The notes under the pieces: generated by a model
The model's database searches: none
What the model was told of the DNA's origin: nothing
What the model saw: only the letters and a program-made list of their open reading frames with translations
Shown here: piece by piece, positions 53,512 to 59,337 of the stretch
How positions within the stretch are numbered: position 1 is the stretch's first letter
Layout: every line of letters starts with the position of its first letter
Program-made: the position numbers and the translations under genes
Assembly: GCA_035629175.1 (NCBI GenBank)
Contig: DASPIL010000011.1
Span: 1 to 64,000 of the forward strand
DNA: 64,000 bases
Direction of reading: 5' to 3'
Source: Verrucomicrobiia bacterium
GTDB lineage: Bacteria > Verrucomicrobiota > Verrucomicrobiia > Limisphaerales > DASXHY01

Positions 53512-55026
53512 CTAACCGACACTCATCCCGAGCAAAAATTCAATATTGCTGCCCGTTTTCTTCAATTTGTTCAGCATGAGCTCCATCGCCTCGACCGGCG
53601 GAACTCCGGTCAGCGCCCGCCGAAGAATGACAACCTTGTTGTACTCGTCCGGGTGATACAGCAGCTCTTCCTTGCGCGTTCCAGAGCGTTCAATGTTAAT
53701 CGACGGAAAGATGCGCCGGTCGACAAGCGAACGATCCAGGTGGACTTCCATGTTTCCCGTGCCCTTGAACTCCTCGAAAATCACTTCATCCATGCGGGAC
53801 CCGGTGTCGACGAGGGCGGTGGCGATAATCGTCAGCGATCCGCCTTCCTCAATATTTCGCGCCGCGCCGAAAAAGCGCTTCGGCTTGTGCAGCGCGTTGG
53901 CATCCACACCGCCCGATAGAATCTTTCCCGAATGCGGCTGCACGGTGTTGTAGGCGCGCGCGAGGCGGGTGATTGAATCCAGCAGGATCACAACGTCGCG
54001 CTTGTGCTCGACCATGCGTTTCGCCTTCTCAATCACCATTTCCGCCACCTGCACATGCCGCTCCGGCGGTTCATCGAAGGTCGAGCTGATCACTTCGGCG
54101 CCACGACAGGAACGTTCCATGTCAGTAACTTCTTCAGGACGCTCATCGATCAGCAAAATGAAAAGATACGCTTCCGGGTTGTTCTTCAGGATGGCATTCG
54201 CAAGTTTCTGCATCAGCACGGTCTTGCCCGTGCGCGGCGGGGCGACGATGAGTCCGCGCGAACCTTTGCCGATCGGGCAGACAAGGTCCAGAACGCGGGT
54301 CGAGAGTTCGTCGGAAGCCGTTTCGAGAAGGAACCGCTTGTTCGGAAACAACGGCGTCAGGTTATCAAAATGCGTCTTGTCCTTGGCCTTCTCAGGGTCC
54401 TCCTGATCCACGCCTTCGACTTTGAGAAGAGCGAAAAAACGCTCCTTGTCCTTCGGCGGCCGGATCTGGCCAGCGATCAGGTTCCCTGTTTGCAGATCAA
54501 AGCGGCGAATCTGCGACGGCGAGACGTAGATGTCCTCAGGGCACGGCAAATAATTAAAACTCTGCGACCGCAAAAAACCAAAACCTTCCGGCAGAACCTC
54601 GAGAACCCCTTCGGAGAACAGCACGCCGGCGCGCTCAGCGTTCTTCTGCAGGATCTGGAATATGACCTCGTGCTTTCGCATCGTGCCGAAATTCTCAACC
54701 CCCAGCTCGCGGGCCATGTTGTTCAGATCTGTCATCGACATCGCCTGCAGCTTCGCGATGTGCAACGAAGTCGCGATATGATCCTTGCCGGTCCCCTGCC
54801 CCTCGGTCTTCCGTGACGGCGGCTCGACGGCTTCGGAATCGCTGGTCTCGATTGGACGAGTGGGCGGCTGGAGTTCCGCGGGAGCGGCCGGGGCGTCATG
54901 GACTTCCACTGCAGCAGGTGCGGTCACGGTCTCTGTCGCAGGCATTTCAGCAAACGTCGCCTGTTGTGGCGTTCGCGCCTTTGATGCGCGTGGAGCTCTT
55001 GGCTTCTTCGTACTGGCTCTAGGCAT
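53512..55026 (-). CDS. rho: Transcription termination factor Rho
   Basis: A 504-residue hexameric RNA helicase. The first ~85 residues are a Pro/Ala/Glu-rich extension. The Rho_N helix region is ~90-130, the cold-shock-like RNA-binding domain is ~135-205 ([19 protein letters not shown]) and the ATPase domain follows with Walker A PPRTGKT (263-269), [16 protein letters not shown] and [16 protein letters not shown]. The conserved C-terminal end is [22 protein letters not shown]. It has its own terminator. Confidence 0.97.
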
Positions 55027-57394: not shown

Positions 57395-58495
57395 TCAAAG
57401 CCGCGACTGGCGCACCACAGCAAGTCCCTTTAGCAGGTCCAATGCCCTTGCGAGCGCGGGGTCGTTGACCACTGGGCGGTGTGGATTGGCGGAATTATTG
57501 TCGGATTGAGAGTTGCCCGGGCGCCCCGGCTGAGGAGTTTCCCCCGGCATTTCCGGCGCGTCGCTGCCACCCCCCCGGCGAATTCCGGCACGATGTTCGC
57601 GAACCAGTTCAGCCTCACCAAAACGCGTTCGCCGCGCTCCGGCCAATTGATTGGTGCCAACACCATTCGTCATCGCCCTCAAGCTGTCGGTGCGCGCGAC
57701 CGAAAAGGCGTCGGCATAATATACCCGCTCTTCTTCTGCCGAGACCGTGACATCGATATCCGGCTTCACGCCGTTTGTTCCAATAAGGGTTCCGTTCGCG
57801 AGCGAAACCGGGTCCGCAGCCAGTCGTAACGTGCTGCCGTCCCTGAGCGGGTAGTCACGCACGATGAAACCGTGCCCGGCAGTCCTGTTTCCAAGGATCA
57901 GTCCGGCCCCGGTGGAACGCAGCACCGCTGCCAATGCCTCAGCCGCCCCGGAGGTATTGCGATTCACCAGGATTGCGAGCGGCAGCTGAATGGTATCGGT
58001 CTTGGCCGTGGAGGAAACCACTTCATCCGACCACTTCAACAATGGCTGCGCACCCGGAATGAACAGTTCCGCGCTCTTCCCCGCTGCCTCGTAATCCGTC
58101 CCACTCGTGTAGCGAAGGTCTATGACCACGCCCGTGAGCTTGATGGAAGAACTGTGCTGCTGGATCACCTTTTGCAGACTGGCTGGCAGCATGGAACTCA
58201 CCGCGCCAATTCGCACATACGCGAGGTTGTCTTCAAAGACGCTCGAACGTGTAATGATTTCCGTTTCGGACGGCTGCGTGGCAGTGTTTGTGATCCACTG
58301 CGCGCGGGGGCTGAGTTCCGATACCAGCCCGCGGACTGCCGCGCGCTGCAACTCCGCATCATTCACGTTCGCGTTGGTGCGAATCAGCTGATACACCTCC
58401 GTAAAATCCGGCGCGTCGGCTGGCGCAGCACCTTTTGCAAGGGCCATTCCAGCCACGCAAAGGCAAATAAGAGAGGATATCCCGGTTCGTGTCAT
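57395..58495 (-). CDS. S41 peptidase-like protein with lost catalytic residues
   Basis: A 366-residue exported protein (signal peptide SSLICLCVAGMALA). The fold of C-terminal processing peptidases is visible: VVIDLRYTSGTDYEAAGKSAELFIPG, LPLAILVNRNTSGAAEALAAVL and LILGNRTAGHGF, then NGVKPDIDVTV. In active S41 enzymes the segments read N-x-x-S-A-S-A-x-E and T-x-G-K-G. Here Gly183 replaces the nucleophile Ser and His208 replaces the Lys base. It should be inactive as a protease and may bind peptides. No PDZ domain is evident between the N-terminus and the core. It lies 51 nt downstream of no gene on its strand until 58591. Confidence 0.7.
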   Translation of the reverse strand: MTRTGISSLICLCVAGMALAKGAAPADAPDFTEVYQLIRTNANVNDAELQRAAVRGLVSELSPRAQWITNTATQPSETEIITRSSVFEDNLAYVRIGAVSSMLPASLQKVIQQHSSSIKLTGVVIDLRYTSGTDYEAAGKSAELFIPGAQPLLKWSDEVVSSTAKTDTIQLPLAILVNRNTSGAAEALAAVLRSTGAGLILGNRTAGHGFIVRDYPLRDGSTLRLAADPVSLANGTLIGTNGVKPDIDVTVSAEEERVYYADAFSVARTDSLRAMTNGVGTNQLAGARRTRFGEAELVREHRAGIRRGGGSDAPEMPGETPQPGRPGNSQSDNNSANPHRPVVNDPALARALDLLKGLAVVRQSRL

Positions 58496-58590: not shown

Positions 58591-59337
58591 TCATTGCGGG
58601 CGAGGGCTCGCGACGCCCTCGAGAAACTTTTTGCGGCAATCAGGGCAAACCCCGTGAGTCACCGATGTGCGGGAGTTTTGGGCGATGTAGCGTTCGATCT
58701 GCTCCCAGTATCCCTGGTCATTCCGCACCTTCTTGCACCACGCGCAGAACGGCAGCAACCCGTCCAGCAAGTCAATGTGCGTCGTGAGCTGCCTCGTCCG
58801 CCGCAGCGTAGCCATTGCATCCGTGCTTTCTCCAAGCAAAACCGCCAGCACGCTGAACGTCACTTGATGCACGGCATCGGGCTTGAGCAGGCCACAGAAC
58901 ATGCCAAGCACCTGCGCCGAGAGCTTCAACGGCCGGAACACACAGCTGCTTGCAACGTTGTTGAATTCAGTGTTGAAAAACGTCGAATCGTCCTGCCGCA
59001 AGGCGCGCGCGAAACTGCCTGACTTTATCTCCTGCTCCACGATCCGCCAGAGAGTCACCTGTTCGCTGGCGGGAATTACCAGCGCGGGTTCAAAACTGAA
59101 ATCTCCGGGATTTACCAGCCAGAATCCAAACGCGTGAAACAGCGCCAGCCCGCGGACATACTCGCCCGTTACATCCAGAATTCCGGCGGTATTTTCCTGC
59201 TCGTGCAGGTCCCGTCGAAAATGCTCCAGGGCAGCGAACAGCCCGAGCATCTCGCGATTTGCATCCAACGTTTTAAGACGCTCCAGGCCCGAGCGCATCA
59301 GGTCTGGATAAACAGATTGCGAATCGTCCCGTGTCAT
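58591..59337 (-). CDS. Signalling protein with C-terminal four-Cys domain
   Basis: A 248-residue cytoplasmic protein. The N-terminal ~190 residues look like a GAF-like sensory domain of unclear ligand (ENTAGILDVTGEYVRGLALFHAFGFWLV). The C-terminal LLPFCAWCKKVRNDQGYWEQIERYI, then VTHGVCPDCRKKFL, is a recurring four-cysteine (C-x2-C...C-x2-C) module found at the ends of bacterial response regulators and PAS/GAF proteins, likely a zinc ribbon. It overlaps the HDOD gene by 4 nt, so the two form a unit. Confidence 0.65.
   Translation of the reverse strand: MTRDDSQSVYPDLMRSGLERLKTLDANREMLGLFAALEHFRRDLHEQENTAGILDVTGEYVRGLALFHAFGFWLVNPGDFSFEPALVIPASEQVTLWRIVEQEIKSGSFARALRQDDSTFFNTEFNNVASSCVFRPLKLSAQVLGMFCGLLKPDAVHQVTFSVLAVLLGESTDAMATLRRTRQLTTHIDLLDGLLPFCAWCKKVRNDQGYWEQIERYIAQNSRTSVTHGVCPDCRKKFLEGVASPRPQ

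Follow-up and report, generated by a model that had tools for sequence, protein, structure and literature searches.

A dyad-less S41 protein from a Verrucomicrobiia bacterium, probably a non-proteolytic offshoot of the C-terminal processing proteases

C-terminal processing proteases (CTPs) belong to the S41 family, whose proteases, e.g., CtpA and Prc, are described as controlling cell-wall enzymes (PMC8764530). The PDZ domain, a named feature of the S41A group, binds the substrate in CtpB and Prc; in CtpA from Pseudomonas aeruginosa, the residues Ser302, Lys327 and Gln331 have been described, and His84, not Gln331, has been argued to be the third catalytic residue (PMC11021448). The contacts reported for the N-terminal dimerisation region (NDR) of CtpA comprise at least nine residues (Leu46, Phe49, Val52, Leu53, Val56, Leu69, Leu70, Ala73 and Met77), and its C-terminal dimerisation region (CDR) contains a leucine zipper built on Leu426 and Leu430 (PMC8764530). 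Besides these active enzymes, pseudoproteases are already known, and IRBP is a known non-catalytic S41 protein: this retinol-binding protein 3 (RBP3/IRBP; PDB codes 9frx, 4lur and 7jti) displays an S41-like fold, has lost the protease catalytic residues and fulfils another task outside the cytoplasm, the transport of retinoid and fatty acid (PMC11750400). PflC from Campylobacter jejuni, a periplasmic HtrA-related protein deprived of the triad, builds part of the flagellar motor, and its oligomerising tendency is suggested to have been exapted for a structural role (PMC12222027). The iRhoms, which are rhomboid pseudoproteases, regulate an active protease.

The protein discussed here is encoded in a window of 64,000 nucleotides, i.e., the whole stretch of DNA that was analysed (contig DASPIL010000011.1 of assembly GCA_035629175.1, order Limisphaerales), and its best structural and sequence matches are CtpA and CtpB. 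With these S41A proteins (PDB codes 8sxe, 7rpq, 9jr1 and 4c2c) it has in common the S41 core and, judging by the residue pattern, NDR-like helices and a CDR-like helix with two zipper leucines. It differs from them by the lack of the catalytic Ser, the catalytic Lys, His84 and the NPGG motif, by the absence of a PDZ domain within its class, and by a NEAELVR motif together with Asp134 and Arg193, which occur on the side of the dyad-less proteins (hereafter pseudo-CTPs). IRBP is a vertebrate protein made of repeated modules with known lipid ligands, whereas the window protein is bacterial, consists of a single module and stands closer to CtpA. PflC belongs to the HtrA and not to the S41 family, has another fold and other partners, and the medial disk is said to be absent from other Campylobacterota. 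The iRhoms are animal membrane proteins of unrelated fold.

In the 366-residue product of the window gene (Table 1), Peptidase_S41 (PF03572) is the single Pfam domain above cut-off (residues 91-249, E 4.8e-23), and the PDB entries matched by phmmer comprise the D1 protease, P. aeruginosa CtpA, CtpB, Prc, CPAF and IRBP. With the NCBIfam model TIGR00225 (prc) the protein scores 69.7 bits, below the curated cut-off of 218.6; where other members were scanned, the NCBIfam models that they match are likewise general ones for CTPs. A preliminary description, made from the letters of the DNA, had already recognized an S41-type protein, which is borne out by the Pfam domain and by a structural model closest to CtpA. 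As judged from its sequence, the protein is related to CTPs of the CtpA/CtpB type. It carries an export signal predicted from hydropathy, the N-terminus being hydrophobic in 94 of the 98 family members defined below versus 5 of 98 for a control stretch.

Table 1. Features of the pseudo-CTP gene, its product and the genes that follow it in the window.
Feature	Position	Strand	Basis
Dyad-less S41 (pseudo-CTP) coding sequence	57395..58495	minus	ATG start, 366 aa, ORF translation
Predicted export signal at the N-terminus, approximately residues 1-24 (inferred limit)	58424..58495	minus	helix 7-17 in model, N-terminal hydrophobicity
N-terminal helical region, residues 29-68, matching CtpA NDR	58292..58411	minus	phmmer to 8sxe, contacts, helices
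Arg64, replacing CtpA His84	58304..58306	minus	DPHS in CTPs, SPRA in window protein
Short linker, residues 69-87, at the PDZ place of CTPs	58235..58291	minus	alignment spans
S41 core, residues 88-250	57746..58234	minus	PF03572 91-249, pLDDT 94-98
Gly183, replacing catalytic Ser	57947..57949	minus	residue reading, phmmer, family alignment
His208, replacing catalytic Lys	57872..57874	minus	residue reading, phmmer, family alignment
RFGEAELVRE, window form of the family motif (commonest NEAELVR)	57596..57625	minus	member alignment
C-terminal helix NDPALARALDLLKGLAVV, matching CtpA CDR	57398..57466	minus	phmmer alignment reaching 8sxe end
Fused LMW phosphatase - RpiB - serine hydroxymethyltransferase (SHMT), 720 aa	55181..57343	minus	downstream, 51 bases after pseudo-CTP, Pfam domains
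rho	53512..55026	minus	next gene after the fused ORF

Relatives of the window protein are widespread in the order. At 1e-5, 58 of 58 genomes match, the weaker matches including ordinary CTPs, 41 of which were read; these come from 40 genomes, G008 contributing two. At 1e-40, a profile built from 30 members retrieves 120 of 167 genomes of the order, distributed over 66 of 77 genera, with residues read in part of them; the other 47 genomes give no match to this profile at that threshold, and each matching genome contains one locus except G408. A scan of 84,980 species yields 118 encoding stretches, and the best 80 of these 118 are mostly titled Verrucomicrobia, subdivision 3, Limisphaerales or Pedosphaera. 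Six typical members (L056, L060, L093, L101, L102 and L106) lie on contigs titled Omnitrophota, Akkermansia, Klebsiella or Proteobacteria and, since they are nested among verrucomicrobial rows, probably belong to mislabelled metagenome bins. The 120 loci reduce to 100 unique members; once L118, from a second class, and L120, a real CTP, had been set aside, 98 members remained, the window protein included, of which 91 belong to the order and 7 to other orders of the class.

Direct reading of the translation gives Ser182, Gly183, Gly207 and His208 at the sites of interest. In the phmmer alignment, TSGAAE of the window protein falls on TASASE and TAGHG on TFGKG of the D1 protease (PDB code 1fc7), and the same pairing is seen with P. 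aeruginosa CtpA (7rpq, 8sxe), so that the catalytic Ser is represented by Gly183 and the catalytic Lys by His208. The Ser-to-Gly and Lys-to-His changes of the preliminary description are thus confirmed, by this alignment and by the columns of the 41 CTPs. Using for CtpA the chain index of 8sxe with an inferred offset of 33, which agrees with Ser302 and Lys327, Ser302 corresponds to Gly183, Lys327 to His208, Gln331 to Val212 and His84 to Arg64, the His84 column being read from an alignment of N-termini only because the PDZ gap misplaces it in the joint alignment. In addition, the NPGG motif of the CTPs, which we take to be the oxyanion region, reads TSGT in the window protein, its second Gly being replaced.

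These replacements are not peculiar to a single genome. The CTPs of the order keep the Ser in 41 of 41 sequences, the Lys in 40, NPGG in all 41, the Gln331 equivalent in 40 and the His84 equivalent in 38. By comparison, the 98 members contain no Ser at the catalytic Ser column, a single Lys at the Lys column (L011, which has Gly in place of Ser) and no His at the His84 equivalent, where 70 have Arg or Lys. When all 100 unique members are considered, the Ser column holds G 83, A 7, E 3, N 3, D 2, Q 1 and S 1, the only Ser being that of the ordinary CTP L120. The Lys column of the 98 members varies freely (Q 32, E 18, G 14, R 12, A 8, H 4, others 10). Sharing of the changes by relatives, proposed earlier as a check, therefore holds for the loss of Ser (98/98, and 43/43 in the second class) and fails for His, which recurs in 4 of 98. 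The earlier proposal of a pseudoprotease is accordingly supported at the level of sequence, the equivalents of Ser, Lys and His84 all being replaced and the loss of Ser being common to the relatives.

Ser182 could be envisaged as a shifted nucleophile, and an alignment placing it in the active site would have spoken for this; no such alignment was obtained, Ser182 facing a column that is Ala in every one of the 41 CTPs and being replaced or matched by R, S, A, T or G in most members, and this candidate was rejected. His208 was likewise rejected as a special catalytic His in view of its occurrence in 4 of 98 members. S41 members such as tricorn and CPAF rely on a His, a point in favour of the idea that peptide hydrolysis persists in the pseudo-CTPs with relocated catalytic residues. 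Migrated residues are also mentioned in a review on pseudoenzymes (PMC10211241), but the only invariant or nearly invariant Ser, Thr or Cys residues of the family are Thr181 and Thr205, at whose positions the CTPs likewise have S or T, and neither Ser182, NPGG nor His208 is conserved, which makes such a relocation very improbable. The one CTP-type sequence of the order that lacks the Lys, L180 (G008:C41), keeps the catalytic Ser and has Thr for Lys (FGTG); it sits on a long branch in an earlier tree, and S41 proteins may thus have been altered in a second way.

The loss of the dyad extends beyond the class. A phylum-wide profile search at 1e-30 matches 10 of 288 genomes, and the matches besides the window genome are seven dyad-less proteins from other orders of the class (L112-L117 and L119), the CTP L120, and one protein of another class, L118. 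The latter lacks the dyad and retains a stretch resembling a PDZ domain (PDZ_2 at E 9e-5, which does not reach the cut-off of that model); it scores 132.9 bits with prc, again below cut-off, and 16 of 16 members of set A3 match this model at E up to 1e-5. Searching with L118 at 1e-12 gives matches in 243 of 387 genomes, many of which look CTP-like, with an identity of about 23-30%. Among the dyad-less proteins of the second class taken from the better matches (loci L181-L230), a selection that favoured L118 relatives, none of 43 has the catalytic Ser (G in 37), while the CTPs from second-class genomes retain S, K and Q in 20 of 20. Asp occupies the Lys column (208) in 38 of the 43 and Arg the Gln column (212) in 41, so that a new fixed pair is found at the dead site of this class. 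A span of PDZ length is kept in 34 of the 43 and absent in 9, and a His stands at the His84 place in at least five (L194, L196, L202, L208 and L214), which indicates that His84 was not lost everywhere.

A tree of 119 rows, built without the catalytic columns, contains one branch (SH-aLRT 99) separating 77 dyad-less proteins from 42 CTPs, in an unrooted topology where the long branches L217, L219, L221 and L222 are placed unsurely. The dyad-less rows comprise 27 of the 91 unique members of the order, the 7 from other orders and 43 of the 46 rows from second-class genomes; the CTP rows comprise 22 of the 42 of the first set and 20 from the second class, and the duplicates L227-L230 and the truncated L188, L216 and L220 were excluded. 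In the earlier tree, the 98 rows required two changes, the seven rows from other orders standing beside the CTPs on a weak branch (78), and the CTPs together with L120 formed one group (100). Since a single branch of the larger tree parts the dyad-less proteins from the CTPs, the loss of the dyad may predate the split of the two classes; the tree fits, but does not prove, a single loss at that stage. The PDZ domain would then have gone after the dyad, perhaps more than once.

The close pairs examined are under purifying selection, dN/dS (NG86) ranging from 0.064 to 0.333 in 11 pairs. At the same time, the pseudo-CTP core diverges more quickly than that of the CTPs encoded alongside it, which is the behaviour expected under relaxed constraint, with a mean core identity between genomes of 47% versus 72% for the CTPs (24 genomes). 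Some members have also lost pieces: L136 (G002:C174) is devoid of the N-terminal helices and of core strands around 211-246, and L129-L133 of genus g43 are devoid of the stretch around residues 152-173. Broken genes, suspected in this genus from split or partial matches, were rejected for the five loci read, in which the frames are continuous and the stretch 152-173 is missing. The fold seems to tolerate losses around the former active site. Faster divergence and the pieces lost in L131 and L136 are what a decaying relic without function would exhibit; yet the purifying selection largely contradicts decay, most loci among the matches listed have no inner stop, residues absent from the CTPs have become fixed, and the gene is present in 66 of 77 genera, so that such a relic is hardly credible. 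An S41 fold devoid of catalytic residues and apparently maintained by selection across relatives corresponds to what is understood as an S41 pseudoprotease.

The AlphaFold2 model, computed from 80 sequences, has a mean pLDDT of 85.9 and a pTM of 0.78, with values of 94-98 per ten-residue block between residues 81 and 260. Its best PDB matches, which are tied, are the Helicobacter pylori CtpA 9jr1 (Z 23.7, rmsd 5.4, 251 aligned) and the P. aeruginosa CtpA 8sxe (Z 23.4, rmsd 6.4, 252 aligned); the superposed model thereby lends support to the conservation of the fold put forward in the preliminary description. The structural matches listed include S41, ClpP and MenB-type folds, with no HtrA or other non-S41 fold near the top of the matches listed, a result that excludes none of them. 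IRBP modules are also present (4lur, Z 18.5, rmsd 4.5, 235 aligned; 7jti, Z 18.4, rmsd 3.1, 196 aligned) and, as they also occur among the sequence matches, the S41 cleft might have turned into a site that carries some ligand, small or lipidic, comparable to that of RBP3, which carries its ligands after losing the protease residues (PMC11750400). The class-specific Asp and Arg fixed at the old active site of the second class would suit a ligand site. However, the CTPs outmatch IRBP in both sequence and structure, and the old Lys position varies freely within the order, and a carrier function accordingly appears quite improbable.

The PDZ-bearing span measures 19-27 residues in the 98 members versus 90-104 in the 41 CTPs, and the Pfam scan of the window protein gives no PDZ match. 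Any binding of peptides, as suggested in the preliminary description, could thus only involve the groove of the S41 core. The helical regions that CtpA uses for its assembly have counterparts on both sides of this core. In the model, helices cover residues 31-41 and 46-60, although the N-terminal piece of the phmmer alignment with 8sxe is low-scoring. This alignment begins at Phe49, so that 8 of the 9 named NDR positions can be transferred; 7 of these 8 are hydrophobic (Ala counted) in 89-98 of the 98 members, compared with a baseline mean of 0.44 over residues 29-299, and the eighth, corresponding to CtpA Leu70, is non-hydrophobic in 96 of 98, so that dimerisation may differ or be lost. On the C-terminal side, Leu354 and Leu358 fall on CtpA Leu426 and Leu430 (with the same offset of 33) and are hydrophobic in 98 and 96 of the 98 members, respectively. 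The comparison of both regions bears on the residue pattern alone, and a conserved hydrophobic face is also found in helices that merely pack on a core, which counts against reading it as a sign of oligomers; the helices of Prc are described to wrap the core and do not oligomerise (PMC8764530).

The pseudo-CTPs have also gained conservation at sites not common to the CTPs, among others Asp134 (92%), Arg193 (95%), Leu297 (100%) and Arg299 (89%), which are located in the segment LDLRxxxGxDY, in the helix after Gly183 and in the NEAELVR motif. In this motif, Glu294 and Leu297 occur in 98 of 98 members, while among the 41 CTPs the Glu294 column has E in 17 sequences and the Leu297 column is a gap in 39.

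With most NDR contact positions hydrophobic in pseudo-CTPs and CTPs alike, the pseudo-CTP might enter mixed CtpA oligomers through the NDR and CDR as a regulatory subunit of an active CTP of the same cell, and dilute, block or direct proteolysis. An active partner would be available, given the catalytic residues kept in the CTPs read (Ser 41/41, Lys 40/41) and the S41 matches over the cut-off in 58 of 58 genomes, a count that mixes CTPs and pseudo-CTPs. According to the study on CtpA-LbcA structures, only one subunit per CtpA dimer is activated and the dimers act on each other (PMC11021448), an arrangement that a dead subunit could exploit. Against this, the CTP gene of the window genome lies on a different contig (G000 C58 versus C11 for the window), and within one genome the cores of the two proteins are on average 27% identical (24 genomes), so that common interfaces are not assured. 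A regulatory function, the other role suggested in the preliminary description, is conceivable, but in this particular form it is rather unlikely.

In the window, the pseudo-CTP gene is followed by a fused enzyme gene, which directly follows in 45 of 81 loci (window included). Of these fused-type neighbours, 37 are single ORFs of 716-751 aa, and 4 of the 8 shorter ones are cut by a contig end; the triple fusion consequently looks real and conserved in the order, and no paper on it was found, by title, in the open-licence literature. More generally, 89 of the 91 unique members of the order have room downstream, and in 54 of these an LMW phosphatase starts on the same strand at a distance of no more than 400 bases; on the upstream side, 82 have room, and PurD ends close to the gene in 22. 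The other orders show PurD just upstream in 4 of 7 and the phosphatase downstream in 0 of 6. In the second class, many loci are flanked by no more than roughly 1.5 kb. Here PurD immediately precedes the gene in 7 of 45 loci, and among the 43 with room downstream the phosphatase is found at up to 400 bases in 10 and at up to 3 kb in 28. The listed ORFs of L211 and L214, both from this class, give PurD, PurE, pseudo-CTP, Sua5/TsaC and LMW phosphatase, several frames overlapping or touching, the PurD of L214 being assigned by likeness and not by Pfam. Sua5/TsaC and the LMW phosphatase, which are two ORFs in L214, are joined in L211 (3639-4772) in one ORF of 377 aa, which is another fusion in the pseudo-CTP gene block. 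On the other side of the window gene, a 248-aa protein without Pfam match at 1e-5 is encoded between the pseudo-CTP and an HDOD protein (58591-59337, minus strand), and genes of the same three clusters occur upstream in the same order in L058 and L060.

A gene block partly common to both classes supports a common descent of the pseudo-CTP gene; for descent across the classes, this neighbourhood is part of the evidence, and only some of the members keep it. The block says little on function because the neighbours are housekeeping enzymes and the pseudo-CTP carries a predicted export signal. The gene context is thus more informative on shared ancestry, and perhaps on co-expression, than on what the protein does.

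Taken together, the loss of the nucleophile, the base and the NPGG loop, combined with purifying selection on the rest of the protein, makes a non-proteolytic role the best reading. The relatives read from two classes share the loss of Ser in the alignments and stand apart, in the larger tree, from the CTPs read from this phylum, and N- and C-terminal helical regions resembling the assembly regions of CtpA appear to be kept. The kept oligomer contacts and the new conserved surface point to an oligomeric scaffold or adaptor of the envelope as the most likely function. We estimate at roughly two chances in three that the window gene encodes an exported oligomeric protein which descends from the CTPs, is not proteolytic and serves for binding or as a scaffold, probably by holding or organising other molecules that it does not cleave. 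After export, the protein would dimerise through its N-terminal helices and form a higher oligomer through its C-terminal helix, both as in CtpA. The S41 cleft, with Asp134, Arg193 and the NEAELVR helix, would then grip a partner or ligand in the cell envelope and leave it uncut, so that the pseudo-CTP would act as a scaffold or adaptor.

A more ambitious and decidedly tentative proposal, unlikely as a whole, holds that the pseudo-CTP arose before the split of the classes and became a lasting component of the envelope, a non-catalytic partner or scaffold of a CtpA system, with a CTP made of two subunits, one active and one dead, and new residues at the dead site. If this were true, many genomes would hold the pseudo-CTP inside a growth-linked block (PurD, PurE, TsaC, LMW phosphatase, RpiB, GlyA), and the residues that different lineages fixed there, such as Asp for Lys and Arg for Gln in one class, would mark a repurposed binding site.

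To our knowledge, the envelope biology of this phylum has been little studied. No description of a dyad-less S41/CTP family, or of one spanning two classes of a bacterial phylum, was found in the open-licence literature, which is weak evidence of absence. A domain search alone would name the window protein a peptidase, but its place is in an ancient branch, non-catalytic by sequence, that has been retained widely. This branch offers a natural series, i.e., proteins with both PDZ and dyad, proteins with PDZ and without dyad, and proteins with neither, for probing what the CTP scaffold does minus cutting. Taken as analogies, PflC and RBP3/IRBP illustrate that the scaffold and carrier routes both occur in nature, and the pseudo-CTP would run parallel to them as a protease fold turned carrier or scaffold.
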